Part shown: piece after piece, positions 33,843 through 55,255 of the stretch | How the letters are laid out: every line of letters begins with the position of its first letter | Position numbering within the stretch: the first letter of the stretch is position 1 | Source of the DNA: a virus | IMG/VR virus record: IMGVR_UViG_3300021197_001635 | Coordinates: 1 to 64,000 of that record | DNA: 64,000 bases | Direction: 5' to 3' (one strand) | The notes under the pieces: model-generated | Database searches by the model: none | What the model saw: the letters and a program-made list of their open reading frames with translations, nothing else | Told to the model about the DNA's origin: nothing | Program-made: the position numbers and the translations under genes

Positions 33843-34442
33843 ATGAGCAAAAAGAAAAAGTACAAGAAGAATCCAGCACACTACGTGGACAACAAGGAGT
33901 TCTACGATGCCTTGTGTGTATGGAAGGATGGAGTGGTAGAGGCTGATGATTGTGGAGAGCCTAGACCACCGATTCCAGACTATATTGGGGAATGCTTCCT
34001 CAAGATGGCAGAAGGTTTGTCCAGAAGGGCCTGCTTCATCAATTATGACTTCAGAGAAGAGATGGTAGGTGATGCAATCGAGAATTGCATACTTTATGCA
34101 CATAACTTCAAGAAGGAAGGCAAAAATCCCTTTGCCTACTTCACGCAGATGATGTATTATGCTTTTTTGAGAAGGATTCAAAAAGAAAAGAAGCAGATGT
34201 ATATAAAGTACAAACTAGTGGAACAAGACCCAGATCTTAGAAATTATATGAAGTGGGATGATAGGGATCCACATGAGAAGCTGAGTGTCCAGAAGCAGTT
34301 CAGACTGTCAGATAACGATGTTAGTAAGTTTGAACCAGCTGGAAAATCCAAGAAGAAGACTAAGAAGAAGGCTTCCAAGAAAAAGACCAAGAAGTCTAAC
34401 GGCAGTGGTGGTACTTTAGATTTTATCATGGAAGATAGTTGA
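33843..34442 (+). CDS. 55: Late-transcription sigma factor gp55
   Basis: 199 residues (T4 gp55 is 185). The core IPDYIGECFLKMAEGLSRRACFINYDFREEMVGDAIENCILYAHNF followed by NPFAYFTQMMYYAFLRRIQKEKKQMYIKYKL corresponds to the sigma region 2-like domain that recognises TATAAATA late promoters and binds core polymerase. The C-terminus has a Lys-rich KKKTKKKASKKKTKK stretch, then a hydrophobic/acidic end (LDFIMEDS) comparable to the gp45-clamp-binding tail of T4 gp55. GGAG precedes the ATG. The stop overlaps gp47 by 1 nt. Confidence 0.95.
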   Translation: MSKKKKYKKNPAHYVDNKEFYDALCVWKDGVVEADDCGEPRPPIPDYIGECFLKMAEGLSRRACFINYDFREEMVGDAIENCILYAHNFKKEGKNPFAYFTQMMYYAFLRRIQKEKKQMYIKYKLVEQDPDLRNYMKWDDRDPHEKLSVQKQFRLSDNDVSKFEPAGKSKKKTKKKASKKKTKKSNGSGGTLDFIMEDS

Positions 34443-35500
34443 TGAAGGTAGCAATCGTAACGGATACACACTTCGGCATCAGAAATGATTCCCAACTGTT
34501 CTTAGATCACTTCGTGGAGTTTTTCAAAGAGGATTTCTTTCCTGCTTTGCGAAGATATGATATCGATACAGTTATCCATGCTGGTGATCTGTTGGACAGA
34601 AGGAAGTTCGTGAACTTCAATACACTTTCATGTGTCAGAGAGAACTTCATGGAGCCTCTAAAAGAGATGGGTGTCACAGTGCATTGCATCTTGGGTAATC
34701 ACGACACCTATTACAAGAATACTAATGATCTCAACTCTATTAAAGAGTTGTTCGGTGATAGGTATGACAATTTTCATCTCTATGAGAAGCCCACAGTGAT
34801 CGATCTAGAGGGGTTTGAGGTAGCGATGCTTCCTTGGATTAACAAAGAGAACCACGACGATAGCATGAAATTCATAGATAGCACTAAGGCTGAGTGGTTG
34901 ATAGGTCATCTGGAATTAGACGGGTATGAGGTCCTAAGAGGCATTAAATATGATGGTGGTACAGACCCCAGAATTTTCGAGAGATTTGAACAAGTTCTCA
35001 CTGGGCATTTCCATTGCAAGCAAGAAGACAAGAATATTATCTATCTGGGAGCACCATACCAGATGACCTTCGCAAGTGTCAACGAGGTTAAAGGATTCTG
35101 GATTTTAGATACTGAAACCAGAGAGCTTGAATTCATTGAAAATGACAGAAAGATGTTCCACAACATCATGTATGATGACTCTAAGAGGGATTATACCAAG
35201 TTCATTTCTAAGAAGCATCCTCAATACAAAGACACCTACGTTAAGATATATGTGAACAACAAGACTCAGCCCTATATACTTGACAGGGTGATCGATTGCT
35301 TGTATAATAGTGGTGTATACGATCTAACCGTGATAGAAGACAGTATAGAGATAGGTGAGGATAATTCCAGTAAGGCAGATGTTACCAAGACCACCTTGGA
35401 ACTGATTTATGAAGAAGTAGATGGGATCAAGGATCTAGAAGATTCCACCAAGATTAAGGATCTGATCCATGAATTATACATGGAATCTATGAAGGTTTAA
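34442..35500 (+). CDS. 47: Recombination nuclease subunit gp47 (Mre11/SbcD-like)
   Basis: 352 residues (T4 gp47 is 339). Metallophosphoesterase motifs in order: DTHFG (residues 8-12), GDLLDRRKF (about 48), LGNHDTYY (about 84) and TGHFHCK (about 185). With gp46 it resects double-strand ends for recombination-dependent replication. The ATG 34442 overlaps the gp55 stop (TGATG). gp46 is displaced about 1.8 kb downstream by a small gene, a tRNA and a purB-type gene. Confidence 0.96.
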   Translation: MKVAIVTDTHFGIRNDSQLFLDHFVEFFKEDFFPALRRYDIDTVIHAGDLLDRRKFVNFNTLSCVRENFMEPLKEMGVTVHCILGNHDTYYKNTNDLNSIKELFGDRYDNFHLYEKPTVIDLEGFEVAMLPWINKENHDDSMKFIDSTKAEWLIGHLELDGYEVLRGIKYDGGTDPRIFERFEQVLTGHFHCKQEDKNIIYLGAPYQMTFASVNEVKGFWILDTETRELEFIENDRKMFHNIMYDDSKRDYTKFISKKHPQYKDTYVKIYVNNKTQPYILDRVIDCLYNSGVYDLTVIEDSIEIGEDNSSKADVTKTTLELIYEEVDGIKDLEDSTKIKDLIHELYMESMKV

Positions 35501-35501: not shown

Positions 35502-35741
35502 ATGAGCAAATATAGAATACATATAGATATGCCATTGGGTACAGACCAAGAAGAGGCACTGTCTAAGATAAAGAGTGTGATGGGTCATTGTATATCAGAA
35601 GAGGTTGATTTTTTTAGAAGCATAGGCATCGATAAAATCGGCATTAGGCTTGGTCATGATGATGACAGACAAAAATCCAACTACCTGAATATAAACGATA
35701 ACGGTCATGTGTCTAATAAAAAGACCATGATAGATATATGA
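35502..35741 (+). CDS. Small hypothetical protein between gp47 and the tRNA
   Basis: 79 residues, starting 1 nt after the gp47 stop (TAATATG). The N-terminus YRIHIDMPLGTDQEEALSKIKSVMGHC and central IDKIGIRLGHDDDRQKSNYLNIN are alpha/beta-like, with no motif I recognise. T4 also has small genes (46.1, 46.2) between 47 and 46, so this may be a positional equivalent. Overlap of its last bases with the tRNA region is excluded: the stop ends 5 nt before the tRNA. Confidence 0.6.
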   Translation: MSKYRIHIDMPLGTDQEEALSKIKSVMGHCISEEVDFFRSIGIDKIGIRLGHDDDRQKSNYLNINDNGHVSNKKTMIDI

Positions 35742-35746
35742 TTTAT

Positions 35747-35819
35747 GGGACGGAAGCGGATGGCATCAGCAGCATCGCTTATAACGATGTTTTCGTGAGT
35801 TCGAGTCTCACTCGTCCTA
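35747..35819 (+). tRNA. tRNA-Ile (anticodon UAU), atypical D-arm
   Basis: 73 nt. Acceptor GGGACGG pairs with UCGUCCU (two G-U pairs) and discriminator A; CCA is not encoded. The anticodon arm is a perfect 5-bp CATCG/CGATG with loop CTTATAA, anticodon TAT at 35780-35782, reading AUA. The variable loop is 5 nt. The T-arm is a perfect GTGAG/CTCAC with loop TTCGAGT. The D-arm is poor: GG is present in the loop but only about 2 bp can form, and position 8 is A instead of U. It could be a functional odd tRNA or a decaying one. AUA codons are common in many genes here, which fits the specificity. Confidence 0.72.
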
Positions 35820-35845
35820 TTGAGTGAAAGTCTAGGAGATTTATT

Positions 35846-37306
35846 ATGAGCAACAGTGTGACACCTTTTTATACCTCACCATTCATGACTAGGTATGCCT
35901 CTAAAGAAATGTCTTATATATGGTCTGACCATTATAAGATTTCGACTTGGAGAAAGTTATGGTGTTGTCTTGCACAAAGTCAGAGGGATGTGGGAATTGA
36001 TATTCCCCAGAAGATCATAGACAAGTTAGTAGACAATATCGACAATATTGACCACGACTCTATATCTAATCACGAAAAAACAACCAAACATGATGTGGTT
36101 GCCAACTTGTTCGCTTTCAGCGACTTGGTGGAAGGGTCTAAGCCTTATATCCATATGGGTGCTACAAGTCAATTCGTGGTAGATAACCAAGAATATTGTG
36201 CTTTAAGAGATTCTATGATAAGGATACTGGGCAAAACCGCCAAGGTGATATCGTCTATAGGCAGTTTTGCTTCTTCTTGGAAGGGAGTGCCAGTAGTCGG
36301 TATGACTCATCTGCAGACTGCCCAACCCACCACGGTTGGTAAAAGAGCATGTATGTGGGCGCAGGATTTTGTAATCGCCATTGAGGATATGGGCATTAAG
36401 ACTGATAACCTCAAGATGAGGGGAATCAAAGGAACGACTGGCACACTGTACTCCTTCTTGGAGATGTTTGAAGGTGATGAGTCTAGATTGTCTGATCTTG
36501 AATATGCTATATGTGATAGGATGGAATGTAAAAGGGAGAATTTGATAAAGATATGTGGTCAAACCCTACCTAGAATTCTAGATGCATCCCTTGTATCCTC
36601 TTTAGGACTAGCCGCCTCTGCGGCATATAAAATGTGTGGTGATATTAGGTTGCTTTGCTCTAGGGGTGAGATGATTATCACCAAGGACACCAACCAGATA
36701 GGATCGTCTGCCATGCCTTATAAAAACAACCCAATAGCGGCAGAGAAGGTTTGTTCTCTTTCTAGACACATTATATCTATGATTCAAGAGCCTTATTATA
36801 CTGCTGCCAACCAATGGTTGGAGAGGAGTCTAGATGATTCTGCTGGAAAAAGAATTTATATCCCAGAGATGTTCTTGTGTTTGGACGAGGTATTGGATAC
36901 ATGTATAAACCTATTTGAGGGTATGATACCCAATCTAGATGTATGTAATAATAACTACAATGATAGCAAGCCATTATTCATATCTGAAGATTTAATACTA
37001 GAGGCTATCAAGAAGAATGATTCAGACAGAGATAGCATGTATACTTACATTAGCGAGTGTTATGTTAATTCCAATACTAATGGGAATATTGACGTTGATA
37101 GACTTGTCAACTTGATCTCTGGTGAGATCTCTTCTAAATCAACGGTTAACAGAGAAGCATCAATGTTTGATGGTATTGATGTGAGAGAATTCTACGAGAG
37201 CAGGATGGATAAAGACTACACTGGTATGTCGGAGTCCCAGACTGAAGACTATACTGATAATGTGATATCCCAAATAAGAGACCATTACTTGGTCGAAGGG
37301 GCATAA
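35846..37306 (+). CDS. purB: Adenylosuccinate lyase
   Basis: 486 residues. ASL catalyses fumarate release from adenylosuccinate and SAICAR in purine synthesis. Visible motifs: RYASKEMSYIWSDHYK at the N-terminus, KHDVVA (about residue 80), HMGATS (about 102), MTHLQTAQPTTVGKR (about 153), KGTTGT (about 194), and the superfamily signature GSSAMPYKNNP (about 287-297) with the catalytic Ser, then WLERSLDDSA. The length and these motifs follow the animal-type enzyme of about 480 residues more than the E. coli type. AGGAG precedes the ATG. It separates gp47 from gp46 and abuts gp46 exactly. Phage-borne ASL is unusual; bases around the signature differ from those I recall in the human enzyme (see findings). 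Confidence 0.9.
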   Translation: MSNSVTPFYTSPFMTRYASKEMSYIWSDHYKISTWRKLWCCLAQSQRDVGIDIPQKIIDKLVDNIDNIDHDSISNHEKTTKHDVVANLFAFSDLVEGSKPYIHMGATSQFVVDNQEYCALRDSMIRILGKTAKVISSIGSFASSWKGVPVVGMTHLQTAQPTTVGKRACMWAQDFVIAIEDMGIKTDNLKMRGIKGTTGTLYSFLEMFEGDESRLSDLEYAICDRMECKRENLIKICGQTLPRILDASLVSSLGLAASAAYKMCGDIRLLCSRGEMIITKDTNQIGSSAMPYKNNPIAAEKVCSLSRHIISMIQEPYYTAANQWLERSLDDSAGKRIYIPEMFLCLDEVLDTCINLFEGMIPNLDVCNNNYNDSKPLFISEDLILEAIKKNDSDRDSMYTYISECYVNSNTNGNIDVDRLVNLISGEISSKSTVNREASMFDGIDVREFYESRMDKDYTGMSESQTEDYTDNVISQIRDHYLVEGA

Positions 37307-39040
37307 ATGTTGATTTTTAGAGAGATACGGTGGAAGAATTTTTTATCCACTGGTAATAACTTCAATGAGGTGTATCTAGACAGATACGACACCACCTTGA
37401 TATCTGGTGACAATGGCTCTGGTAAGTCTACGATGTTAGATGCTATTACCTTTGCCTTGTATGGTAAATCCTTCAGGGGTATTAATATTAAAAATCTGGT
37501 TAACAGTGTCAACGATAACGAATGTTTGGTAGAGATAGAGTTCACCATCAATAGACACGACTATAAGGTAAGAAGGGGCATTAAACCCAAGGTCTTTGAG
37601 ATCTTCAAAGATGGATCAATGATGCCCCAAAATGCTACTGTCAAAGATTATCAAAATGTACTGGAAGAACAGATACTCAAGATGTCTTATAAGGCCTTTT
37701 GTCAGGTGGTATTATTAGGATCTTCCAGTTATATACCATTCATGAAGTTGCCTAATAAGGACAGGAAGATAATTGTAGAAGATCTCTTGGATATTAATAT
37801 ATTTTCGATTATGAACAATCTAATAAAGGCTAGATGCTCTGTCAACAAAGATCAGATAGCGATCCTATCCAATAAGACTGGTATCCTTAAAAACAAGATA
37901 GAGAATCACGAGAGGCTGATAGAGAGAATCAAAAGGAAATCTAAGGAATCGTCTGAAGGTTATCAAGAAGAGATAGACAACACCAAATCCCAGATAGAGT
38001 CTATAGAAGGAGAGATCAATAAAATCAGATCTGAGATTTCTGATCATCTGTCCTCTATTCAGGATTCCGATAAGTCTTTCAACCGACTAAACAAAATGGA
38101 GTCAGTTGATAACCAGTTGAAGAAAAATATAAAGAAGATCAAGAAAGAGATAGACTTTTACAAAGAGAACGACAGTTGTCCCTCTTGTCATCAGGATATT
38201 ACTAGCGACCATAAAAGCAAGCAGGTATCCCTCAAGGGGGAGAAACTAGACGAGATAGAAAAGGCTATAGATTCCATATCAGATAATATATCATCTATAG
38301 AAGAGGAAGTCAGCAGAATCAATAGAGTTAACAATTTGGTCTCTGACCTAGAGTCTGAGATATCAGACAAAAAGAGCACACTTAAGGCATGTGACATTTA
38401 TGTTGATAAGATGCAGAACAGCATAGAGGCATTGGAGTCTGATGTGGGAGAGTTGGAAAAAGAAGAGGAAATGCTAACGTCTACTAGTAAAGAATATAAA
38501 AAGTTCGATGACAAAATGCGGGGATTAGTAGAGGACAGGACTGATTTAGAAATAGTGGGTGGTCTGATGAGAGATACTGGTATCAAATCAAAGATAATAG
38601 GGTATTATCTACCAGTGATGAATAGACTAATCAACCAATACCTTTCCTCTATGGACTTTTTTTGTCAATTCACCCTCGATGAGAATTTCGATGAAACTAT
38701 CAAGAGTAGGTTCAGAGATGACTTCAGTTATCATAACTTCAGCGAGGGGGAAAGACTTAGGATAGACCTTTCTCTGCTATTGGCATGGAGAGAAATCGCT
38801 AGATTGAAAAACAGTGTGAACTGCAATCTATTGCTACTGGACGAGGTTTTTGATTCTAGCCTAGATGCAGTCGGAACTGAAGAATTCCTTAAGATTTTAG
38901 GTAGTCTAGGGAAGAAGGCTAATGTGTTCGTAATTACCCATAAAACTGATCAACTAATCGATAAATTCGACAATAACCTTCATTTCACCAAGAAGGGCAA
39001 TTTCAGCAGCATGACCTTTAGGATGCATAAAGATGCCTAA
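37307..39040 (+). CDS. 46: Recombination nuclease ATPase subunit gp46 (Rad50/SbcC-like)
   Basis: 577 residues (T4 gp46 is 560). Walker A SGDNGSGKST about residues 33-42, Q-loop region LGSSSYIPFMKL, a long coiled coil about residues 185-410 broken by the zinc hook CPSCH (about 289-293), signature motif FSEGERLRIDLSLLLAW (about 478) and Walker B LLLLDEVFDSSLD (about 507). It partners gp47 in end resection. It starts directly after the purB stop (TAAATG) and overlaps the methyltransferase gene by 8 nt. Confidence 0.96.
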   Translation: MLIFREIRWKNFLSTGNNFNEVYLDRYDTTLISGDNGSGKSTMLDAITFALYGKSFRGINIKNLVNSVNDNECLVEIEFTINRHDYKVRRGIKPKVFEIFKDGSMMPQNATVKDYQNVLEEQILKMSYKAFCQVVLLGSSSYIPFMKLPNKDRKIIVEDLLDINIFSIMNNLIKARCSVNKDQIAILSNKTGILKNKIENHERLIERIKRKSKESSEGYQEEIDNTKSQIESIEGEINKIRSEISDHLSSIQDSDKSFNRLNKMESVDNQLKKNIKKIKKEIDFYKENDSCPSCHQDITSDHKSKQVSLKGEKLDEIEKAIDSISDNISSIEEEVSRINRVNNLVSDLESEISDKKSTLKACDIYVDKMQNSIEALESDVGELEKEEEMLTSTSKEYKKFDDKMRGLVEDRTDLEIVGGLMRDTGIKSKIIGYYLPVMNRLINQYLSSMDFFCQFTLDENFDETIKSRFRDDFSYHNFSEGERLRIDLSLLLAWREIARLKNSVNCNLLLLDEVFDSSLDAVGTEEFLKILGSLGKKANVFVITHKTDQLIDKFDNNLHFTKKGNFSSMTFRMHKDA

Positions 39041-40631
39041 TAAATTTTACGAGAAGAATACCCATATCTTAAAATCGCATGTCAATATCACCTATGAGGA
39101 ATTGGTTAGCCTTAGTGATGAAGAATTCGTAGAATGGGTGAAAGAGATGAGGAAGGAAATCCTCAGGATATGGGACGATTATAACATACCCCCTAGATCT
39201 GGTGGTAAATCGGAGCAGGAGATCACATCACAATTCAACAAAATGAGCGAATACTCCATCAATAAGTTTATCTACACTGATGCCTTGGAGGACCAAGAGG
39301 ATGACACGATATTGAACACTTCGGGTCTGGGTGTAGAAGCAGACCAGTGGTTTGACAACATGTATAAGACCAGAATCAATAGGTCTGATAAGGATGATGG
39401 TCATTCTGTTTATGACTTGTTTAATGACGATCAATACCTAGACAGTGTTGTCAAAAGATCACATAGGCACTTCAGGAGGGACGGCTTCTACCTTCACGCA
39501 CAGTCGATCAAGAAGAATGACAAGAAGTCTGGTTTAGTATCTGTATCCAATGCTAAAGAATGGATGGAAGCCTTTATAAATAATGAAAAGATATTTAAGA
39601 ACCACGATTTCATCCTAGAAGAGGTAAAACCCCCCACTGGAATGAATGCTGGTTATTTTCAGTTGGATGAGACTGATTTGTTGCACTTGACGAAAGAAGA
39701 GGTAGAATATTACAATGATCGAGGAATTTTACAACATCGCCATACTTCTAATATTGATCTGTCTAGCCTTGATGCCAGACGACTCTATAGAATAAGACTA
39801 TATGAAAAAGGGAGGAGTATCTTCCCCAAAGGATTTATTCCCTTCAGGATTGGTTATATCCAACCTGCTGTCAACTTCCCTCCCATGACTGCTAAATATC
39901 TATATGAGAGATTCACAAATCATATCAAAAATCAAGACGTTATTAATATATACGACCCTTCTTCTGGTTGGGGTGGTAGGATACTCGGTGCTATGTCTGT
40001 CAGGGATGATCGCAGGGTTCATTATGTTGGTACTGACCCTAATCCTGATAACTTCTACAATGATTTTAATAACAGCAAGTATGCTGATCTCGCTGATTTT
40101 TACAATACCAAGACTTATAGGGGAAATCCTTTCTTTTCCCATACCAATTCTTATGAGATTTTTAATGAATGCTCAGAAGAGATTGGGGATAACCCCGATT
40201 TCAGAAAATATAGAGGAAGAATCGACCTCATATTCACTTCGCCGCCTTATTTCAACAGAGAGGCATATAGCGAAGATCCTAAGCAATCGTACAAAAAGTA
40301 CGGGTCGTCTTATGAATCATGGAAAGAAGGATTTTTGAGACCCACACTTGAGACGTGCTATGAGTTCCTGAAGGAGGATAGATATCTTTTGTGGAACATA
40401 GCCGACCTCAGGATGGCTAACAAAGAATATTTGCCCCTAGAGCAAGACTCGGTTGATATACTGGAGTCTTTGGGCATGGAATATGTTATGACTTTTAAAA
40501 TGGCTCAGGTTGGTATGCCTGGCTCTAATAGGTTGACTGAAGATGGGAAGCCACATGTAAAGAATTTTTGCCTGATAGGGGAAAAATACTACAAGTACGA
40601 GCCAGTGTTCGTATTCAGGAAGGGGGGTTGA
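39033..40631 (+). CDS. DNA methyltransferase (SPPY-type, N4-cytosine or N6-adenine)
   Basis: 532 residues. SAM-binding motif I YDPSSGWGGRILGA about residues 306-319, acidic motif GTDPNPDN about 335, and catalytic motif IV FTSPPYF about 401-407, in alpha/beta amino-methyltransferase order. SPPY is most frequent in N4-cytosine enzymes, but N6-adenine is possible. The first 280 residues have no motif I recognise; they may be a target-recognition or other DNA-binding domain. No restriction gene is adjacent, so a protective or regulatory role is inferred. The start overlaps gp46 by 8 nt. Confidence 0.82.
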   Translation: MPNKFYEKNTHILKSHVNITYEELVSLSDEEFVEWVKEMRKEILRIWDDYNIPPRSGGKSEQEITSQFNKMSEYSINKFIYTDALEDQEDDTILNTSGLGVEADQWFDNMYKTRINRSDKDDGHSVYDLFNDDQYLDSVVKRSHRHFRRDGFYLHAQSIKKNDKKSGLVSVSNAKEWMEAFINNEKIFKNHDFILEEVKPPTGMNAGYFQLDETDLLHLTKEEVEYYNDRGILQHRHTSNIDLSSLDARRLYRIRLYEKGRSIFPKGFIPFRIGYIQPAVNFPPMTAKYLYERFTNHIKNQDVINIYDPSSGWGGRILGAMSVRDDRRVHYVGTDPNPDNFYNDFNNSKYADLADFYNTKTYRGNPFFSHTNSYEIFNECSEEIGDNPDFRKYRGRIDLIFTSPPYFNREAYSEDPKQSYKKYGSSYESWKEGFLRPTLETCYEFLKEDRYLLWNIADLRMANKEYLPLEQDSVDILESLGMEYVMTFKMAQVGMPGSNRLTEDGKPHVKNFCLIGEKYYKYEPVFVFRKGG

Positions 40632-42847: not shown

Positions 42848-43543
42848 ATGACAACTGCTACCAAAATGCAAATCTCTAGAAATACTCTAGAGATCCTAAA
42901 GAATTTTGCTTCAATCAATTCTAATATTTTAGTGAAGCCTGGTAATAAAATCAGGACCATCTCTAATTATAAGAATGTATTGGCAGAAGCAGATCTAGGA
43001 GAAGATTTCGACACAGAATTCGGAATCTGGGACCTGAACAAATTACTGGGTACTATCTCTCTATTTGACTCGCCTAAATTCGAGTTCGATGAGAAGTATA
43101 TGACCATCGAAGGTGACAACGGTGCTACGGTTCGATACTATTATTCTGAACCGAAGCTGCTCACAACCGTCACCAAGGAAATCAATATGCCGAATGTGGC
43201 AGTGAGTTGCACCATCAATGAAGATGATTTTAAGGAAATCCATAGGGCATCGTCTGTCTTGCAATTGCCAGATCTGAAGATTTCTTCTATGGGGGACTCC
43301 TCCATTCTTACTATCCATGACCGCAAGGATTCATCTTCCAATAGTTACACCTTCGAGGTTGGTAACAACCCAGATGGTGCTGAATTCAATTTCTACTTCA
43401 AGGTAGAAAATATGAAGATGCTCCCAGGCGAATATGATGTCGACATTTGTGAGACTGCCGTTGCCAGATTCAGCAACAAGAATGTGGGTCTCAGATACTG
43501 GGTCGCCATGGAACCAGATTCTTCCTACTCTGGTGCAGAATAA
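42848..43543 (+). CDS. 45: Sliding clamp gp45
   Basis: 231 residues (T4 gp45 is 228). Two clamp domains are seen: MQISRNTLEILKNFASINSNILVKPGNKIRT and, after ITVTKEINMPNV-like linker sequence, VSCTINEDDFKEIHRASSVLQLPDLKISS. It is the trimeric processivity factor for DNA polymerase and the mobile enhancer of late transcription with gp55. ATG 42848 is preferred to GTG 42845, with GGAG at 42837-42840. The stop overlaps the next ATG by 1 nt. Confidence 0.95.
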   Translation: MTTATKMQISRNTLEILKNFASINSNILVKPGNKIRTISNYKNVLAEADLGEDFDTEFGIWDLNKLLGTISLFDSPKFEFDEKYMTIEGDNGATVRYYYSEPKLLTTVTKEINMPNVAVSCTINEDDFKEIHRASSVLQLPDLKISSMGDSSILTIHDRKDSSSNSYTFEVGNNPDGAEFNFYFKVENMKMLPGEYDVDICETAVARFSNKNVGLRYWVAMEPDSSYSGAE

Positions 43544-43944
43544 TGGATCCCCATAGCAAGATATATATTGCTGGTCCCATGAGAGGGAAACCCAACTGGA
43601 ATTATGATGAGTTCAACAGGACTGAGAAGATTCTTATTGGCAATGGATGGGAAGTAGTTAACCCAGCTACGTTGGATACCAACTACGAGGACACAGCAGA
43701 TCTGGGATGTGAAGCAGAAGATTTCGACCCAGATGGCAATAAAAAGCACAAAAGTGTGAATAGAAGGATCATGAAAAGAGATCTGGATATTATATGTGAT
43801 GAATGCTGTGCAATCTATATGTTGAAGGGATGGCAGGTATCTCAGGGAGCATGTGCTGAGTTTTATCTGGCATGTTCATTGGGTCTTGATATCTATTATG
43901 AAGGATGTAAGCACGACATAGGTTCAGATAGACTGTGCTTCTAA
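43543..43944 (+). CDS. DUF4406 / nucleoside 2-deoxyribosyltransferase-like protein
   Basis: 133 residues. KIYIAGPMRGKPNWNYDEFN at residues 6-25 is the signature of DUF4406 and related nucleoside deoxyribosyltransferase-fold proteins. A Cys-rich middle (DIICDECCAIYMLKGWQVSQGACAEFYLA) contains the usual helix with Gly-Ala-x-x-Glu, where family enzymes place a catalytic Glu. Actual substrate unknown; nucleotide salvage or base exchange is an inference. It is wedged between gp45 and the fucose genes, sharing 1 nt with gp45. Confidence 0.75.
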   Translation: MDPHSKIYIAGPMRGKPNWNYDEFNRTEKILIGNGWEVVNPATLDTNYEDTADLGCEAEDFDPDGNKKHKSVNRRIMKRDLDIICDECCAIYMLKGWQVSQGACAEFYLACSLGLDIYYEGCKHDIGSDRLCF

Positions 43945-43963: not shown

Positions 43964-44863
43964 ATGCGTACTATGGTGACAGGTGGTGGAGGTCTAGTAG
44001 GATCCGCTATTGAATCGGATTTTAAGCCCTCTAGCAAAGAGCTTAATCTTTTCAATCTAGGTGATATTGTTGATTACCTCCAAGAGAACAGGATCGATAA
44101 TGTTATTCATTGTGCTGCTAAGGTGGGTGGAATCAAAGCGAACTCTGAGAAGTTGGCAGATTTCTTCTATGATAACACTTTGATGAATACTAATCTATTA
44201 GAGGCTGCTAGACTATGCAGACTCGAAAAGGTGGTATCCTTCATGTCAACATGTGTGTTTCCCGCTGATGCTGAATATCCACTTCAATCGGATAGGATCC
44301 ACGACGGGGAACCACACCAATCCAATTATGCTTATGCCTATGCAAAGAGAATGTTGGAAGTACAGAGCAGAGCATATAGAGACCAATACGACTGCAATTT
44401 TGTTACGGTTATTCCATGTAATATCTATGGACCTAACGACAATTTTAGTATGGACTCTGGGCATGTTATCCCATCTCTCATCCACAAATGCTATCTTGCC
44501 AGAGAGAATGGCACTGATTTAGAGGTCTGGGGTACTGGCAGGCCTTATAGGGAATTCATTTATTCAAAGGATGTTGCAGAGGCGGCAGTATGGGCACTAG
44601 ATAATTATGACGATCCAGAACCCCTGATCATTTCTCCTAATGAAGAAATATCAATAGCAACCTTGGCATCGGCAATCTGCTATAGAATGGGTTTCAAAGG
44701 GAGAATAGTGTTCAATCAGAAGATGGATGGTCAGATGCGTAAACCATCGGATAATAGCAAATTGCTGTCATTGATGGGTGATTATAAGTTCGTGCCGATT
44801 GAGATCGGTCTCACTAAGACTATAGAATGGTTCGAAGAGAACTATCGGGAGGCTAGAAAATGA
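43964..44863 (+). CDS. fcl: GDP-L-fucose synthase
   Basis: 299 residues (E. coli Fcl is 321). NAD(P)-binding TGGGGLVG at residues 6-13, CAAKVGGIKAN (about 50), SSTC-equivalent MSTCVFP (about 94), catalytic Tyr-x3-Lys in AYAYAKRML (about 124-128), and NIYGPNDNF...GHVIPSLIHKC (about 152-175), the Fcl/GMER signature. It converts GDP-4-keto-6-deoxymannose to GDP-L-fucose by epimerisation and reduction. GGGAGA precedes the ATG; 4-nt overlap with gmd. Confidence 0.92.
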   Translation: MRTMVTGGGGLVGSAIESDFKPSSKELNLFNLGDIVDYLQENRIDNVIHCAAKVGGIKANSEKLADFFYDNTLMNTNLLEAARLCRLEKVVSFMSTCVFPADAEYPLQSDRIHDGEPHQSNYAYAYAKRMLEVQSRAYRDQYDCNFVTVIPCNIYGPNDNFSMDSGHVIPSLIHKCYLARENGTDLEVWGTGRPYREFIYSKDVAEAAVWALDNYDDPEPLIISPNEEISIATLASAICYRMGFKGRIVFNQKMDGQMRKPSDNSKLLSLMGDYKFVPIEIGLTKTIEWFEENYREARK

Positions 44864-45903
44864 CGAATATCTCCGATGCAAAATACGGTGGAGAGTTATG
44901 GAAGAAGGAGAGGGGACTGAAGAAGACCGCTCTGATTACGGGCATTAATGGTCAAGACGGTTCTTATCTTGCTGAACTTCTTCTTAGCAAGGGGTACGAG
45001 GTTCATGGGGTATTGAAAAGGAACTCTGTTGCTGAGAACCAGACAGCTAGACTGGACAGTATTTTCGACAAGTTGACCCTGCACTATGGTGACCTCAATG
45101 ATTTATCTTCCTTGATCTCCATCTTGCAGAAATCTAAACCAGACGAGGTGTATAGTCTGGCAGCACAATCTCATGTCAGAATAAGTTTTGACATGCCCAT
45201 CTACACTGCTGCAACTACGGGCATGGGGATCCTCAACTTGCTAGAAGCATGCAGACTGACATGTCCTGAGGCTAAAATCTACCAAGCATCATCCTCTGAG
45301 ATGTTTGGGAATATGATTGATGTGGATGGTTTCCAGAGAGAGACCACCCCCATGAATCCAGTTAGTCCTTATGGTTGTGCCAAGGTGTTTGCATATAACA
45401 TTAGCAGAAACTATCGCAATTCTTATAATATGTTTATCTCTAATGGGATACTTTTCAATCATGAGTCTCCTAGAAGAGGATCCAATTTTGTAACCAGCAA
45501 GATAGTAAAGGGTGCGGTGGCAATAAAGAACGGTCTAACAGATGAGCTTAGATTGGGTAACCTTGATGCGACTAGAGACTGGGGACATGCTAAGGACTAT
45601 GTTAAAGCAATGTGGTTGATGTTACAGCATGACCAACCAGATGATTTTGTATGTTCGACTGGTATATCTAACAGTGTCAGAGATTGTTGTGAGTGTGTAT
45701 TTGATAGACTGGGTATGGATTATAGGGATTATGTTAAGATAGACCCAAAATACTTCAGACCAGAAGAATTAGAGCATTTAAAAGGAGACGCAACCAAGAT
45801 AAAAGATGTTCTAGGTTGGAAGCCTGAATATGACTTCAGGTCTATGATGAATGAAATGGTAGAGATGGAAGTGGGATCTAATACCCACGTTTTGAATCAG
45901 TGA
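44860..45903 (+). CDS. gmd: GDP-mannose 4,6-dehydratase
   Basis: 347 residues (E. coli Gmd is 373). NADP motif GINGQDGSYLAE about 28-39, HYGDLNDLSSL, SSSEMFGN (about 146) and SPYGCAKVFA (Tyr-x3-Lys, about 170), then GILFNHESPRRGSNFVTSKI, which is diagnostic for Gmd. It makes GDP-4-keto-6-deoxy-D-mannose, the precursor of GDP-fucose, perosamine and rhamnose. There are about 20 extra N-terminal residues before the Rossmann strand; no better downstream start exists. Paired with fcl inside the replication operon. Confidence 0.95.
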   Translation: MTNISDAKYGGELWKKERGLKKTALITGINGQDGSYLAELLLSKGYEVHGVLKRNSVAENQTARLDSIFDKLTLHYGDLNDLSSLISILQKSKPDEVYSLAAQSHVRISFDMPIYTAATTGMGILNLLEACRLTCPEAKIYQASSSEMFGNMIDVDGFQRETTPMNPVSPYGCAKVFAYNISRNYRNSYNMFISNGILFNHESPRRGSNFVTSKIVKGAVAIKNGLTDELRLGNLDATRDWGHAKDYVKAMWLMLQHDQPDDFVCSTGISNSVRDCCECVFDRLGMDYRDYVKIDPKYFRPEELEHLKGDATKIKDVLGWKPEYDFRSMMNEMVEMEVGSNTHVLNQ

Positions 45904-45910
45904 GAACTTT

Positions 45911-46879
45911 ATGACTATGATTATTGATAATGATACCCACCAGAAGCAGTATCTCTGGGTGGAGAAATATAGACCGAACTGTATCGAGGATTGTATCCTT
46001 CCCGATAAGATCAAGAAAACATTCATGGATATGGTGGAATCTGGGGAGTCCCAGAATCTGTTGTTATCTGGGTCTGCTGGTTGTGGCAAGACCACGGTGG
46101 CAAAAGCATTGTGTATGGAATTGGATACCGATTGGTTGATGATCAACTGCTCAGAAGACGGAAATATCGATACCCTTAGGACCACCATCAGGAATTTTGC
46201 CAGCACAGTGTCTTTGAGCGGTGGCAAGAAGGTGGTGATCCTAGACGAATTCGATTATGCAAATGCTCAGAGTATGCAACCAGCATTAAGGGGTTTCATT
46301 GAAGAATTCGCTAACAATTGCAGATTTATTCTGACATGCAATTTTAAGAACAGGATCATTGAGCCTATTCACTCCAGATGCACCTGCATCAACTTCCAGT
46401 TCACTAAAAAAGACAACTCCCAGATGTGTGCTAAGTTCATGAAGCGAGTTGGAAGCATCCTAGAATCTGAGGGTGTGCCAGTTGAAGATCCAGCAATTAT
46501 TGCTAAGTTGATATTCAGATACAGCCCAGATTTCAGAAGGGTCATTAACGAATTGCAGCGATACTCGGTGTCTGGTACGATTGATGTTGGAATCCTTACT
46601 GACATCGAGAACGTCAAGATAGAAGATCTCCTCAAAAGCATGAAGACCAAGAATTTCGGGGAGGTCCGAAAATGGGTGGTAGACAACCTAGACAATGATC
46701 AAAACCAGATCTTTAGAAAAATGTATAATTCTATGTCTGAATCCATGGAGGCCCAGAGTATTCCATCTGCAATTTTGATTCTAGCAGAATATCAATACAA
46801 ATCAGCCTTCGCTGCAGATCAAGAGATTAATATGACTGCCTGTCTAGTAGAAATGATGATGGAATGCAAATTCAAATAG
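45911..46879 (+). CDS. 44: Clamp-loader ATPase subunit gp44
   Basis: 322 residues (T4 gp44 is 319). WVEKYRPNCIEDCILPD at the N-terminus, Walker A GSAGCGKTT about 54-62, Walker B VVILDEFDYA about 106-115, and arginine-finger motif IHSRC (about 153), all in AAA+ clamp-loader order. It loads gp45 with gp62. The upstream distance to gp45 is about 2.4 kb because of three inserted genes; in T4 the two are adjacent. Confidence 0.96.
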   Translation: MTMIIDNDTHQKQYLWVEKYRPNCIEDCILPDKIKKTFMDMVESGESQNLLLSGSAGCGKTTVAKALCMELDTDWLMINCSEDGNIDTLRTTIRNFASTVSLSGGKKVVILDEFDYANAQSMQPALRGFIEEFANNCRFILTCNFKNRIIEPIHSRCTCINFQFTKKDNSQMCAKFMKRVGSILESEGVPVEDPAIIAKLIFRYSPDFRRVINELQRYSVSGTIDVGILTDIENVKIEDLLKSMKTKNFGEVRKWVVDNLDNDQNQIFRKMYNSMSESMEAQSIPSAILILAEYQYKSAFAADQEINMTACLVEMMMECKFK

Positions 46880-46891
46880 GGGAGACACTAA

Positions 46892-47233
46892 ATGTCAAAT
46901 GAAGAAAAAGGCACAACAGAGTTGATCTCAAGATTCGACACCCCCGAGGAGGGTAAAGGGACTTTCTCTCCTGTGGGGAACAAGGTGTTGGTTCATTGCG
47001 TGATCAATAGGGAAAAGACCACCGATAGCGGAATCGTCTACACTGAAAACAACGGCCATGAGCCTATGAAGGTGCTGGTGGTTGCTGTCGGTGACGAGGT
47101 GAAAGAGGATATCAGGATAGGCGATATAGTTTTGTGGGAGAGGGTATCCCTTGGTGAATGGAACGGATACCAAGTTGTGGAGGAGAGTTCCATTCTAGCA
47201 ATATGGGCGAGGTTAGAAGATGAAGCTGGGTGA
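46892..47233 (+). CDS. GroES-like co-chaperonin (gp31 analogue)
   Basis: 113 residues (GroES is 97, T4 gp31 is 111). FSPVGNKVLVHCVINREKTT is the GroES roof/barrel start; SGIVYTENNG corresponds to the mobile-loop GIVL hydrophobic tripeptide that docks GroEL; VVAVGDE, IGDIVLWER and EESSILAIW are the remaining cpn10 strands. It likely adapts host GroEL for folding the capsid protein, as T4 gp31 does. About 22 extra N-terminal residues are polar. GGGGAGA precedes the ATG. It lies between gp44 and gp62, overlapping gp62 by 14 nt. Confidence 0.85.
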   Translation: MSNEEKGTTELISRFDTPEEGKGTFSPVGNKVLVHCVINREKTTDSGIVYTENNGHEPMKVLVVAVGDEVKEDIRIGDIVLWERVSLGEWNGYQVVEESSILAIWARLEDEAG

Positions 47234-47609
47234 TTATCTGAAAGCAATTAATTGGAAGAAGACTCCAATGAAGAAATTGGATGAAGACTTTCATACCACG
47301 AAGAAGAAGTATGTTCCTTTCATAGTGAACAAATGTATGTCTTACTTTTCAGACACTATCATTCAGTCTAATAATATGAACTTGAATTCTCACATAGACA
47401 AAGAGATGCATTATGACTATCTGATGTATTCTACCAGAAGCAGAAACAGATTCAGCAAGTGGCATAGAAAGAGTGTACCAGATGATTTGGATCTGATAAA
47501 GGAATACTTTGGATACTCTAATGAGAAGGCCTGTGAAGCCTTAAAGATATTGAGTAAGGACGACATCGAAGGAATCAGATCCGATATGGATACTGGAGGG
47601 CAATCTTAG
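47220..47609 (+). CDS. 62: Clamp-loader small subunit gp62
   Basis: 129 residues, shorter than T4 gp62 (187). The start LGDYLKAINWKKTP and YVPFIVNKCMSYFSDTIIQSNNMN, then RSRNRFSKWHRKSVPDDLDLIKEYFGYSNEKACEALKIL, match the gp62 family in marine T4-like phages. It is the clamp-loader spacer subunit working with the gp44 tetramer. It starts within the last codons of the co-chaperonin gene (14-nt overlap), so translation is coupled. Confidence 0.9.
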   Translation: MKLGDYLKAINWKKTPMKKLDEDFHTTKKKYVPFIVNKCMSYFSDTIIQSNNMNLNSHIDKEMHYDYLMYSTRSRNRFSKWHRKSVPDDLDLIKEYFGYSNEKACEALKILSKDDIEGIRSDMDTGGQS

Positions 47610-47621
47610 AGGCTGTTCTAT

Positions 47622-47629
47622 TATAAATA
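47622..47629 (+). promoter_or_regulatory. T4-type late promoter box TATAAATA
   Basis: Exact TATAAATA between gp62 and regA, 46 nt before the ATG at 47676. It could drive regA and the glycan genes from 48102 onwards late in infection, unless regA is mainly read through from upstream. Confidence 0.7.
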
Positions 47630-47675
47630 TCCACAGAAGCCTTTCAGTATGGGTGAAAGATTTAAGGATATTAAT

Positions 47676-48080
47676 ATGAGTAATAGATTAACGGCAGAAG
47701 ACCTAGTTGAAGTCAGTCTAGGACATGAAGAAGACTTCCTTAAGGTCAAAGAGACTCTAACCAGAATGGGTGTTTCCTCTCGAAAAGAGAAGAAATTGTA
47801 CCAATCTTGTCATATTCTCCACAAAAAAGGCAAATACTATATAGTTCATTTTAAAGAACTGTTCGGTCTGGATGGACTTCCCAATAATATATCTGAGGGT
47901 GATATTGCAAGAAGGAATATGATCATCAGCCTGTTGGAAGAGTGGGAACTAATTGGTGTTGTGGATATAGATAAATGTGAAGAACCCATGGCATCTTTGG
48001 GTCAGATCAAGATAATACCCCACAGGGACAAAGAAGAATGGGAGCTGATACCCAAGTATCATATCGGCAACAAGAGATAG
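47676..48080 (+). CDS. regA: Translational repressor RegA
   Basis: 134 residues (T4 RegA is 122). DFLKVKETLTRMGVSSRKEKKLYQSCHILHKKGKYYIVHFKELF is nearly the T4 sequence, and the end WELIPKYHIGNKR matches too. It binds mRNA initiation regions of early genes to shut off translation. ATG 47676 has AAGGA 7 nt upstream; the in-frame ATG at 47649 would add nine residues and has a poorer ribosome site. Confidence 0.95.
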   Translation: MSNRLTAEDLVEVSLGHEEDFLKVKETLTRMGVSSRKEKKLYQSCHILHKKGKYYIVHFKELFGLDGLPNNISEGDIARRNMIISLLEEWELIGVVDIDKCEEPMASLGQIKIIPHRDKEEWELIPKYHIGNKR

Positions 48081-48101
48081 TTTGATTAAGGATTTTTTAT
48101 C

Positions 48102-48809
48102 ATGAGAAATAGCATTGACCTTAGAGACACAAAATGTGTCTATATCAACCTCGACACCGCAGAGAGAAATAAAGAAGAGATGGATGCCCAGTTGGGGTCT
48201 CTGGAGTTTAAGGACTTCGAGAGACTCTCAGCCAGGGTTGTTGCACCTCCCACACCAGAACCTCCACCAGAATACGGTTCGAACGCCGATACTTGGTGGA
48301 ATATCTTTAGGGGTGTGGCACAATCCCATATTGATATCCTAGAAACTAATGACGCACCCGTCCTTATCTTAGAAGACGATTCAGTGGTGACTGAGGATTT
48401 CCGTCCGATTCTAGAAAATATCCCAGAAGATACTGACGGGATATATCTAGGCATATCTCAGAGCGATGGTAAATATAATGCATATGATATAGGGTCGGGT
48501 TATGCATGGATAAGGGGTATTTTCTCTACACATGCTATCCTGTATCTCAGCGAACGGTATAAAAATGCGGTCCTAGCGATGGCAAAGGATTGGGCATACA
48601 ATAAAAATTTTGCGACTGATATTGGTTGGTGCAGACTCCAAAACGATTTCAATATCATAACCCCCCACAAGCCCTTCTTTTATCAGGCAGATGATAGAGA
48701 GAGCCTAAACAAATGGGGTAACCTTACCAAGACTCCTCTAAGGCTTAAAGAACTACCAGTATCAAAACCCAGTAGTCCAGCACCCATAGGTCCAATCGGA
48801 GCCCCCTAA
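48102..48809 (+). CDS. Glycosyltransferase family 25-like
   Basis: 235 residues. KCVYINLDTAERNKEEMDAQL at residues 11-31 is the N-terminal GT25 motif; VAQSHIDILETNDAPVLILEDDSVVTEDF (about 73-101) contains the conserved Ser-His helix and the acidic EDD metal site. GT25 enzymes transfer galactose and related sugars to LPS or proteins. First gene of the glycan island, after regA. The end is Pro/Ser-rich (SKPSSPAPIGPIGAP), perhaps a disordered tail. Acceptor unknown. Confidence 0.8.
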   Translation: MRNSIDLRDTKCVYINLDTAERNKEEMDAQLGSLEFKDFERLSARVVAPPTPEPPPEYGSNADTWWNIFRGVAQSHIDILETNDAPVLILEDDSVVTEDFRPILENIPEDTDGIYLGISQSDGKYNAYDIGSGYAWIRGIFSTHAILYLSERYKNAVLAMAKDWAYNKNFATDIGWCRLQNDFNIITPHKPFFYQADDRESLNKWGNLTKTPLRLKELPVSKPSSPAPIGPIGAP

Positions 48810-48811
48810 TC

Positions 48812-49783
48812 ATGATCCTGTATCGGTGTCCTGTGAGGGTGGGAATAGCTGGTGGTTCCACTGATTTGGAATCATTCATACAGCAGAATGGTAGAGGGTC
48901 AGTAATTAACTTCCCTATTGATCTGTATACTTATATACTGGTGCATAGAGATAAGATGGGTCTCAACTCTTCATCTGGCAGGTACGTAGTCAACTACTCT
49001 TTGAGAGAAGAGTGTGAAAGCATAGATGATATCAAAAACGACGTGATAAGAGAATCCGTTAGAGAATGCTATGACTCTCCTTGCTTCATCACCATGACTA
49101 GTGATATAAGTTCCTCTGGGTCTGGACTAGCATCCTCTTCAAGCTACATGGTGTCGGCGGTTAAGGCTCTTACCGAGATGTCTGGAGATGATATATCTCA
49201 GTATGATTGCTGCAAGAAGTCTATGGATTTAGAGAGAAGATTCAACCCTTTATTGGGTTATCAAGACTCATATGGGTGTGGGATAGGGGGTCTGAAACGA
49301 CTAGACTTTATGCCCAATAAAGACCCTAAGATCAACTACCTCCCCTCTGGCATTCTGGGGGGAATAAATATGCACCTTGTGAATACCTGCATAAATAGAT
49401 CGTCCACCAAGATTCTTGGATCTATAGAGACCAAGAATAATGACAGGCTCCATAAAATATTAGGTATTGTCGACGAAATGGAAGATGCTATTGTGAGGCA
49501 AGACATCGATTCATTCGTGAACCTGATCAATAACGGTTGGGAGGAGAAGAAAAGGTCTTCTAGCATGATATCCAATGAAGAGATCGCTGTTATGGACGAG
49601 ATGATTCTTGGTACGCCTGGTGTCCTAGCTAGGAGAGTGTGTGGTGCTGGAGGTGGGGGTTATTTTCTGGTATTCTCCGATAAAGGGTATAAGGTGGGCA
49701 ATTCACTCATTGATACTTTCGGAGAGAATAGGGTGCTGCCAGTCAGTATAGACAATGAAGGTGTTAAGAGGATGGGATTATGA
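48812..49783 (+). CDS. hddA: D-glycero-D-manno-heptose 7-phosphate kinase (GHMP family)
   Basis: 323 residues (HddA about 340). RCPVRVGIAGGSTDLESF at the N-terminus is the HddA/GHMP substrate-binding start, DISSSGSGLASSSSYMV (about residues 97-112) is the GHMP phosphate loop, and VCGAGGGGYFLVF (about 275-287) is the C-terminal GHMP motif. It would phosphorylate heptose 7-phosphate to the 1,7-bisphosphate. It overlaps the gmhA start by 4 nt, which supports the heptose pathway over other GHMP sugars. Confidence 0.85.
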   Translation: MILYRCPVRVGIAGGSTDLESFIQQNGRGSVINFPIDLYTYILVHRDKMGLNSSSGRYVVNYSLREECESIDDIKNDVIRESVRECYDSPCFITMTSDISSSGSGLASSSSYMVSAVKALTEMSGDDISQYDCCKKSMDLERRFNPLLGYQDSYGCGIGGLKRLDFMPNKDPKINYLPSGILGGINMHLVNTCINRSSTKILGSIETKNNDRLHKILGIVDEMEDAIVRQDIDSFVNLINNGWEEKKRSSSMISNEEIAVMDEMILGTPGVLARRVCGAGGGGYFLVFSDKGYKVGNSLIDTFGENRVLPVSIDNEGVKRMGL

Positions 49784-50313
49784 ACAACCACTATAATACA
49801 AGCAGAAATCTTGATTCGATATCTGACTCCATTTCTAAGATAGACAAGGCTGAAGTGGGTAAATTATCGGATCAGGTGAAGGATCATAAGGATATCATAA
49901 TAATAGGCAATGGGGGTAGCAATGCTATGGCATCTCATATGGCAATAGACTACACCAAGTTCTTGTGCAAGAGGTGTACCTCTTTCGATGAGGGTCCTAG
50001 ACTGACTTGTTATTTCAATGATTATGGGGTAGAGGAAGCCTATAGGAGATATCTGAACGAGTTCATATCAGATAATAATTATCTAGTTATATTAATATCC
50101 TCTTCAGGAGAGTCCAAGAATATAATAAATTGTGCCGAATACTGCTGTAGGAATGGAATCAACTTCGTGATTCTGACTGGCATGAGAGAAGACAATAAAC
50201 TGAGGATGCTATATGGTGGGCAAGCATCTGCAGATATTTGGGTTGATTCAGATAAATACTCGGTGATAGAGTGCACACATGAGGTATGCCTCCATTCTTT
50301 AGTAGGGAGTTGA
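49780..50313 (+). CDS. gmhA: Sedoheptulose 7-phosphate isomerase (SIS domain)
   Basis: 177 residues (GmhA about 192). IIIIGNGGSNAMASHMAIDYTKF (about 41-60) and LISSSGESKNIINCAEYC (about 107) are the two SIS phosphosugar-binding loops in GmhA form, and ECTHEVCLHSLVG gives the metal/His helix near the end. It converts sedoheptulose 7-phosphate to D-glycero-D-manno-heptose 7-phosphate, the first step of NDP-heptose synthesis. Contains three consecutive AUA codons (49897-49905). Overlaps hddA by 4 nt. Confidence 0.9.
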   Translation: MNNHYNTSRNLDSISDSISKIDKAEVGKLSDQVKDHKDIIIIGNGGSNAMASHMAIDYTKFLCKRCTSFDEGPRLTCYFNDYGVEEAYRRYLNEFISDNNYLVILISSSGESKNIINCAEYCCRNGINFVILTGMREDNKLRMLYGGQASADIWVDSDKYSVIECTHEVCLHSLVGS

Positions 50314-50315
50314 TA

Positions 50316-51047
50316 ATGATATACTGTTTTGATATTGATGGAACCATTTGCTCCCTTGAAGTGGACGGAATGGAGGAGGGCAGAGAGAAAGACTTCGCCC
50401 AGATAGAGAATACTAGACCTTTCACAGACGTTATTAATAAGATAAACAGACTTTATAGCGAGGGTAACACCATTAAGGTTTACACTGCTAGAGGTGATGT
50501 GTCTGGTATAGATTGGAAGGACAAAACCTTATCCCAACTAGAAGAGTGGGGTCTCAAGTTTCATAAGTTATATATGGGTGCTAAGCCTGCTGCTGATCTT
50601 TATGTCGACGACAAATGCATTAACATACAAGACTGGAGAGATCATTCAGCGACTGGGATTATTGCGGGATGTTTCGACATAATCCACCCTGGCTATATTA
50701 AGATGTTTAAGGATGCTAAGGATGTATGTGATAATTTGGTGGTCGCATTGCATGAAGATCCATCAGTTGAAAGGGAGCATAAACATTCCCCAATCCATAC
50801 GGTTCAAGAGAGAGAAGATATACTGAGATCGATTAGGTATGTAGATGATGTGATTAGATATAAGACCGAGAATGATTTACAATCTTTATTAATCAATACT
50901 AAACCAGAATTTAGAATCATGGGGAGTGATTATAAGGATACGAGATTTACTGGGGACGATTTGGGTATCCCCGTTCACTGGCATGACAGGGATCATGACT
51001 ACTCATATTCTTCACTTAGATCAAAATTAGAAGGGACTTTACAATGA
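50316..51047 (+). CDS. HAD phosphatase-like / nucleotidyltransferase fusion
   Basis: 243 residues. Residues 1-107 are a HAD-type domain (CFDIDGT 4-10, VYTARG 55-60, YVDDK 96-100) of the sort found in polysaccharide clusters. Residues about 114-243 are a TagD/HldE-C-like nucleotidyltransferase: AGCFDIIHPGYI (117-128), EREDILRSIRYVDDVI (about 165-180). The usual HxGH reads HPGY. In context it could supply both the missing phosphatase (GmhB-like) and nucleotidyl transfer steps of NDP-heptose synthesis; specificity is inferred. ATG 50316 is chosen over 50286, with GGGAG 8 nt before. Overlaps the epimerase by 4 nt. Confidence 0.78.
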   Translation: MIYCFDIDGTICSLEVDGMEEGREKDFAQIENTRPFTDVINKINRLYSEGNTIKVYTARGDVSGIDWKDKTLSQLEEWGLKFHKLYMGAKPAADLYVDDKCINIQDWRDHSATGIIAGCFDIIHPGYIKMFKDAKDVCDNLVVALHEDPSVEREHKHSPIHTVQEREDILRSIRYVDDVIRYKTENDLQSLLINTKPEFRIMGSDYKDTRFTGDDLGIPVHWHDRDHDYSYSSLRSKLEGTLQ

Positions 51048-53608: not shown

Positions 53609-53910
53609 TGATATATGTAGACATTGATGAGACTGTATGTGACACCCCCACCGATCCAGATGATGGGTCCAGAGACTATCACTCTTCCATCCCCAGAGAA
53701 GAGATGATAGATAAGGTTAATCAGATGTACGATGAAGGCAATAGGGTGGTGTACTGGACTGCTAGGGGAAGTAAGTCTGGTATAGATTGGTATGACCACA
53801 CAGAAAAGCAACTCAAGTCTTGGGGTGCTAAACACCACGAGCTTAGGTGTGACAAGCCCTTTTATGATATCTTCTACGATGACAAAACGATGAGAATAGA
53901 AGAAATCTGA
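53602..53910 (+). CDS. HAD-like protein, paralogue of the fusion's N-domain
   Basis: 102 residues, one HAD core: VDIDETVCDT (about 6-15), VVYWTARGSKSGIDWYDHT (about 49-67) and IFYDDKTM. It aligns throughout with residues 1-107 of the 50316-51047 protein (shared TARG, SGIDW, QL, WG, KP, DDK). The nucleotidyltransferase half is absent. Motif I reads DIDET in place of DIDGT. A phosphatase acting on a sugar phosphate in the same pathway is plausible. Overlaps GT11 by 7 nt and ends the first part of the island before a late promoter. Confidence 0.72.
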   Translation: MLVIYVDIDETVCDTPTDPDDGSRDYHSSIPREEMIDKVNQMYDEGNRVVYWTARGSKSGIDWYDHTEKQLKSWGAKHHELRCDKPFYDIFYDDKTMRIEEI

Positions 53911-53917
53911 GAGAAGG

Positions 53918-53925
53918 TATAAATA
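53918..53925 (+). promoter_or_regulatory. T4-type late promoter box TATAAATA
   Basis: Exact TATAAATA in the 41-bp gap inside the glycan island, 26 nt before the ATG at 53952. It makes the second half of the island (53952-59958) a late transcription unit. Confidence 0.78.
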
Positions 53926-53951
53926 AACTAGTGATTTATTGAGGTGTTTAT

Positions 53952-55254: not shown

Positions 55255-55255
55255 T

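Follow-up and report, generated by a model that had tools for sequence, protein, structure and literature searches.

A T4-like marine phage encodes an adenylosuccinate lyase that most probably acts in a phage-run 2-aminoadenine pathway

The virus record IMGVR_UViG_3300021197_001635 is 136,012 bases long, and the window analyzed here is its first 64,000 nucleotides. A predicted adenylosuccinate lyase (ASL) gene, purB, lies in the window between the genes for gp47 and gp46, as a preliminary description of this DNA had proposed; the two neighbors match phrog_100 (gp47) and phrog_77 (gp46). The features at and near the locus are as follows.

34439 to 35500, plus strand: gp47-like SbcD-type nuclease subunit, the upstream neighbor of purB (phrog_100, E 1.2e-100)
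35502 to 35741, plus strand: open reading frame of 79 residues with no family match, between gp47 and purB
35746 to 35820, plus strand: tRNA-Ile (anticodon tat), the sole tRNA found in the window
35834 to 35838, plus strand: AGGAG, probable ribosome-binding site of purB, identified by eye
35846 to 37306, plus strand: purB, adenylosuccinate lyase of 486 residues with an ATG start, assigned from family models, PDB matches and key residues
37307 to 39040, plus strand: gp46-like SbcC-type subunit (phrog_77, E 2.7e-164)
43543 to 43944, plus strand: DUF4406 / nucleoside 2-deoxyribosyltransferase-like protein, with 69-70% identity in two relatives

The TAA stop of purB abuts the ATG of gp46, and the gap between gp47 and gp46 holds the 79-residue frame and the tRNA-Ile(tat) in addition to purB. 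PurB is likewise placed between gp47 and gp46 in two relatives. Directly 3' of gp46 is a gene for a 532-residue protein with an N6_N4_Mtase domain (39033-40631; 61-77% identity in two relatives). A long series of sugar-nucleotide and glycosyltransferase genes occupies 43964-58691, inside the replication region; it includes a GHMP kinase, a DegT aminotransferase, a glycosyltransferase 11 and a FkbM methyltransferase, with others recognized by eye. A Cpn10-like (GroES) protein of 113 residues is encoded at 46892-47233. Two genes outside the window are also of note: a glutamine-synthetase-like gene in this T4-like phage (72571-73647; Gln-synt_C 47 bits, Gln-synt_N 37 bits), and a match to Porin_O_P (77349-78518; 30.7 bits, cut-off 20.9), which is odd for a phage record.

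The purB product passes the Pfam model Lyase_1 (PF00206; 77.6 bits against a cut-off of 27). Its top model is NCBIfam purB, TIGR00928 (284.3 bits, E 1.5e-84), where it falls below the curated cut-off of 326.2, and it also matches PHROG 1703, a family of unknown function (E 7.7e-80). The superfamily signature GSSAMPYKNNP and the catalytic residues H155 (human His159) and S287 (human Ser289) are all present, which bears out the original claim of a full-length ASL with these motifs. Nine residues, which take in the catalytic His and Ser, the signature loop and the Arg and Ser that bind phosphate (R16, H82, H155, S287, K293, N295, R327, S332 and R336), are invariant across 20 viral rows, some of them identical (L109/L110, L111/L112, L122/L123), and 80 cellular rows, the best 80 of 588. 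The best solved structure is human ASL (5nx8, E 7.6e-97), and E. coli-type structures are far weaker, e.g. 2pts (3e-5), which we take to be the E. coli form. The ranking thus agrees with the first reading of the enzyme as animal-type and not E. coli-like, except that the human type is also found in bacteria, among the cellular PurB rows. Judged by its sequence, the product of 35846-37306 is a genuine phage adenylosuccinate lyase. It is very improbable that the protein is instead another fumarase-superfamily enzyme, such as a muconate cycloisomerase or a lyase for some other metabolite. The missed purB cut-off would fit such an enzyme, but the purB model leads any non-ASL model by about 180 bits or more (the nearest, 3-carboxy-muconate cycloisomerase, scores 94 bits), the top PDB matches are all ASLs, and the marker residues of the ASL site do not vary.

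Two positions set the marine T4-like enzymes apart from cellular ones. At the positions of human Arg85 and Arg303, the six rows of the marine T4-like clade (the phage PurB and its five nearest viral rows, two of those identical) all have Lys, and all 80 cellular rows have Arg; human residue numbers, here and above, were counted along the PDB alignment with an offset of three. In human ASL, the phosphate of the substrate is touched by Arg303, and a Cys in its place hurts cleavage of SAMP more than cleavage of SAICAR (PMC6301967). Our guess is that Lys at these two positions suits dSMP as a substrate.

The same six rows join in a PurB tree (SH-aLRT 97), separate from the sampled cellular PurBs. 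The tree was made by a quick method with 40 of the 80 cellular rows, and its long branches make the deeper order unsafe. Phylogeny had been suggested as a way to find the donor of the gene; no cellular sister to the viral clade appeared among the 40 cellular rows, and no donor can be named from this tree. Below, G000 is the virus record studied and other G-numbers are further viral records. Among G000, G001 and G004, PurB is only 47% identical; PurZ reaches 92 and 83%, and gp47 71%. A scan of viral contigs with a single PurB protein as query gave no match, and a PurB alignment as query gave 19 viral loci. The phage-isolate collection gave 28 PurB matches, none of them in a T4-like phage. Four of the best "phage" matches there (MT83xxxx, human fecal) were rejected as phage evidence and attributed to bacterial contamination. 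Bacterial genes surround PurB in two or more of these (purC-/purF-like, enolase-like, or a purA adjoining purB, judged by eye), and all four were therefore used solely as bacterial rows. Several records of that collection (MT83xxxx, OR84xxxx and the CAKLQ series) look like bacterial contigs, and counts of phage purine genes that include them would be misleading.

A search for purA or purZ elsewhere in the genome, also suggested at the outset, was positive. One protein, detected in two pieces, was found when the whole record was searched with PF00709.

115547 to 116620, outside the window: purZ, succino-amino-deoxyadenylate synthase of 357 residues, assigned from PF00709, the PurZ model, key residues and a tree

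This protein scores 215 bits with the PurZ model NF038379 and 145 or less with PurA models. The PurZ score is below the curated cut-off of 300; with the same model, the PurZ and PurZ0 proteins of phiVC8, SH-Ab, Hiyaa and Ghobes score 346-422 bits and cellular PurAs 72-136 bits (20 matches in 18 of 20 genomes). The best PDB chain is 6fko (194.8 bits), titled adenylosuccinate synthetase, which we take to be the PurZ of phiVC8, followed by S-2L PurZ, 7odx. The match table also contains a near-identical chain, 6FM1, which is phiVC8 PurZ (PMC8342488). The phiVC8 protein and the one encoded here are 39% identical. In the motif GQWGSTGKGK, Ser replaces the catalytic Asp of PurA, which is present in all 20 cellular PurAs; this replacement is the criterion for PurZ (PMC12884076). 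Compared at the S-2L pocket residues (S23, T273 and 305-308, from PMC8342488), the protein has Thr at T273 (Gly in 20 of 20 cellular PurAs) and N-F-x-N at 305-308, the nucleotide-base site (Asp at 308 in 19 of 20). Among its differences from S-2L are His at Y203, Thr at C204 and Ala at P336. The residue alignment left out L008, L009 and L015, which are duplicate or partial. A tree of 17 rows, made by a quick method without bootstrap, groups the protein with the PurZ of phiVC8 and SH-Ab and separates it from cellular PurA (SH-aLRT 98). Overlapping the end of purZ by four bases is a gene for an ADK-like protein (26.4 bits, just below the cut-off of 26.8), and such a gene follows purZ in both relatives too. 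Some 78 kb separate purB from purZ, and the two do not form one operon.

The pairing of PurZ with PurB is solid as gene content. A PurZ scan gave eight loci, and PurB is present in two of the eight records, the two longest (136,240 and 126,210 bases); the other six, of 48,033 bases or less, are without it. Conversely, 7 of the 19 viral PurB records match the PurZ model: 7 of the 8 of at least 98 kb and none of the 11 shorter ones. These eight long records, a small and partly related sample, comprise six with a Ser-type PurZ, one with an Asp-type PurA (G019) and one with neither. G019 has Asp at the diagnostic site, PurA models score it best, and it groups with PurA in the tree. The record with neither, G013, has no PurZ in 113 kb; G013 and G012 have identical PurBs, and G012 does have PurZ. 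As a control we used 28 T4-like relatives with gp23, from a set of 80 T4-like records retrieved by a head-protein search; most of the 28 are short, and three exceed 120 kb. None of the 28 has PurZ, and the one with PurB, G022, was already among the 19. In the phage-isolate collection 211 records match PurZ. No T4-like phage, by name or size, is among the matches listed (60 and 60, overlapping, of the 211); the named phages among them are 38-83 kb, and some rows resemble bacterial contigs. The sequences themselves show the families and key residues of the enzymes, the co-occurrence of their genes in a single record and the reappearance of the pair among relatives.

Three of the long records contain other combinations. 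G019 (locus L132; 128,325 bases) encodes PurB, an IMP dehydrogenase (IMPDH) and the PurA-type (Asp) enzyme with an NKTD motif, possibly an ordinary set for boosting AMP and GMP. G025 (395,473 bases) and G012 (341,434 bases) each encode PurB, a Ser-type PurZ, an A_deaminase-family protein and a PolA match, and are perhaps separate Z-DNA lineages.

Two further purine genes of the record are adjacent, with the second overlapping the end of the first.

84193 to 85290, outside the window: IMPDH, 365 residues (IMP dehydrogenase model 391 bits, GMP reductase 200)
85238 to 86296, outside the window: A_deaminase-family protein

The IMPDH alignment skips the middle of the model, the part in which the CBS domains of full-length IMP dehydrogenases lie, and from its sequence the enzyme is of a CBS-less form, without the usual regulatory domain. 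The A_deaminase protein is closest to 3ou8/3pan/3pao/3pbm (430 bits) and 3rys (380 bits), which we take to be adenine deaminases and which the PDB table labels adenosine deaminase; it is far from the classical adenosine deaminases (119 bits and less). Among 13 records scanned, IMPDH is present in G000, G001, G004 and G019, and A_deaminase in G000, G001, G012, G013 and G025; A_deaminase was not found in G004, and neither gene is in any of four long controls. A single deaminase type across these lineages was considered and rejected, as the G012 and G025 proteins are only 23-27% identical to that of G000, over part of their length; one clear type is common to G000 and G001 only. Nine A_deaminase matches in the phage collection were judged to be bacterial contigs, from names and contig form only. 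IMPDH is 98% identical between G000 and G001 (44897-45931 in G001), far above gp47 and PurB, which hints at a recent exchange of this gene.

The replication genes are those of a T4-like phage. The head protein is nearest that of Pelagibacter phage HTVC008M (57%), the polymerase is a T4-type family B enzyme nearest those of T4-like cyanophages (48-49% identity), and the record also encodes a clamp of the gp45 type and a subunit of the clamp loader. PolA (PF00476) is absent from G000, G001 and G004, so there is no PolA-type DpoZ in these records. The dATP triphosphohydrolase DatZ (PF12917), another gene that the preliminary description had proposed to look for, was not found in this record or in any of the 13 metagenomic records, with both positive controls, phiVC8 and SH-Ab, matching. 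For the step from dGTP to dGMP, DUF5664 (PF18909) is absent from the same 13 records (the SH-Ab positive control matches), and no MazZ-type protein was found in the record with phiVC8 p26 and SH-Ab p40 as queries. A dUTPase-family protein (64963-65553) was rejected as a DutZ despite a match to a fused protein of Hiyaa. Phage phiM12 has the same dUTPase gene between regA and gp43, and the dUTPase motif varies among these phages; the gene is therefore not counted as Z evidence.

We postulate that PurB and the phage's own PurZ make 2-aminoadenine (Z) nucleotides, and we give this a probability of about 0.75. In this T4-like marine phage, PurB would most probably catalyze step two of a 2-aminoadenine pathway run by the phage itself. 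PurZ would join aspartate to dGMP to give dSMP, which PurB would cleave to dZMP and fumarate. Either kinases of the host or the kinase-like protein whose gene overlaps the purZ end would convert dZMP to dZTP, and the family B polymerase would place Z in DNA, replacing adenine. The CBS-less IMPDH and the adenine-deaminase-like enzyme, whose genes are adjacent, could move purines from adenine toward guanine and thereby supply the raw material of PurZ. The 2-deoxyribosyltransferase-like protein (43543-43944) is possibly a putative part of this adenine-removal branch. From these gene assignments we infer the substrates and the flux, as well as the kinase step and a virion that contains Z. With no DatZ, DUF5664 or PolA, the exclusion of adenine, if there is any, would be by another means, and deamination may be the way in which adenine is kept out of DNA. 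A fuller version of the pathway would be a largely self-reliant, adenine-emptying route that combines the deaminase and IMPDH, PurZ, a dSMP-adapted PurB (Arg85 and Arg303 to Lys), a coupled kinase and a family B replisome to give a Z genome, with exclusion by deamination and not by DatZ. This complete scheme is tentative, and we would sooner bet against it than for it.

Several observations count against a Z pathway: the lack of a DatZ, DUF5664 or MazZ match and of PolA, the distance between purB and purZ, the two missed curated cut-offs, and relatives in which the set is incomplete or different (G013 without PurZ, G019 with a PurA-type enzyme, G004 without the adenine deaminase). In addition, hosts have PurB, and a phage copy is therefore not strictly needed. 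The obvious alternative is ordinary purine boosting, in which PurB would drive IMP to AMP, and perhaps the SAICAR step, and raise the nucleotide supply of the infected cell. In its favor, the phage enzyme retains every ASL catalytic residue and finds its closest structural matches in ordinary ASLs, other purine genes are carried by phages, and the relative G019 combines PurB with a PurA-type enzyme and IMPDH. However, the sole PF00709 protein of the record is PurZ-type, the partner is Ser-type in six of the eight long viral PurB records, and IMPDH together with an adenine deaminase would counter the supply of AMP. We consider this alternative unlikely. The two roles first proposed for PurB have thus fared differently: the 2-aminoadenine role, proposed on condition of a PurZ elsewhere in the genome, gained from the PurZ found in the record, and the IMP-to-AMP or SAICAR role is now less supported, since the only PF00709 protein is of the PurZ type and IMPDH would divert IMP. 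A narrower form of the 2-aminoadenine reading is that dZTP is made and Z is a partial or minor base, or that the enzyme pair mainly drains host dGTP and dATP. This is a sub-case of our preferred explanation, and its likelihood overlaps with that of the whole; we regard it as a real possibility, short of even odds. It would fit the T4-type family B polymerase, with its 48-49% identity to cyanophage enzymes, and the failure to find DatZ and a PolA-type DpoZ, which are the known means by which Z phages exclude adenine. Against it, a Z-selective polymerase is missing from S-2L as well, which depends on control of its nucleotide pools (PMC8342488), and the adenine-deaminase-like gene could provide pool control here.

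Pairing of PurZ with a PurB-like gene is already known from the actinophages Hiyaa and Ghobes. In the literature covered, which left most subscription papers outside, we found no report of PurZ with a phage PurB or of an adenine deaminase with 2-aminoadenine, and no description of adenine exclusion by deamination instead of DatZ. The available text of PMC12884076 does not mention adenylosuccinate lyase, "myovir", "family B" or deaminase, and that of PMC12783734 names bacterial PurB. As far as the available sources describe them, proven Z-DNA phages have small genomes and mostly a PolA polymerase, and they borrow the PurB of the host. Compared with the known aminoadenine phages, which are smaller and do not resemble T4, the phage described here may need less from its host to make 2-aminoadenine. 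If it is a Z phage, a T4-like group would be added to the at least seven groups of Z phages counted in PMC12884076, and Z-DNA would prove compatible with a family B replisome that has a clamp and clamp loader. A phage-coded PurZ-PurB pair would also be available for building Z-DNA in vitro, and PurB is a natural case in which to ask whether lyases can be adapted to a deoxy, 2-amino substrate.

Comparison with known systems places the lyase, and then the pathway. The human-type ASLs (5nx8, 2j91) align with PurB over about 390 residues (E 1e-96) with the catalytic residues kept, and differ in having Arg85 and Arg303 where the phage enzyme has Lys. The description of a phage purB as unusual has to be softened, as PurB-like annotations exist in Streptomyces and Gordonia phages and in Microcystis phage MaAM05. 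The MaAM05 purB is an annotated phage gene like ours, but it is 24% identical and lies among unrelated neighbors in a jumbo genome of 273,876 bases. The PurZ0-type phages Hiyaa (Streptomyces) and Ghobes (Gordonia) each encode a PurZ-family gene and an annotated PurB-like protein or adenylosuccinate lyase. Their genomes are smaller (83 and 45 kb), Ghobes has an annotated DNA polymerase I, and their PurBs are only about 24-25% identical to the one described here, over part of the length and on very long tree branches. PurZ0 phages use enzymes other than DatZ (PMC12884076), and S-2L is a proven Z phage that has no PolA-type DpoZ (PMC8342488). The Z-cluster of S-2L and phiVC8 (PurZ, DatZ, MazZ) resembles the present system in the Ser at the Asp site of PurZ and in the N-F-x-Q/N base site, and phiVC8 PurZ groups with the PurZ of this record in the tree. 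The record differs from these phages in having no DatZ match, in being T4-like and about 136 kb long, and in its family B polymerase. S-2L and phiVC8 leave the conversion of dSMP to dZMP to the host (PMC12884076), whereas this record encodes a PurB of its own.
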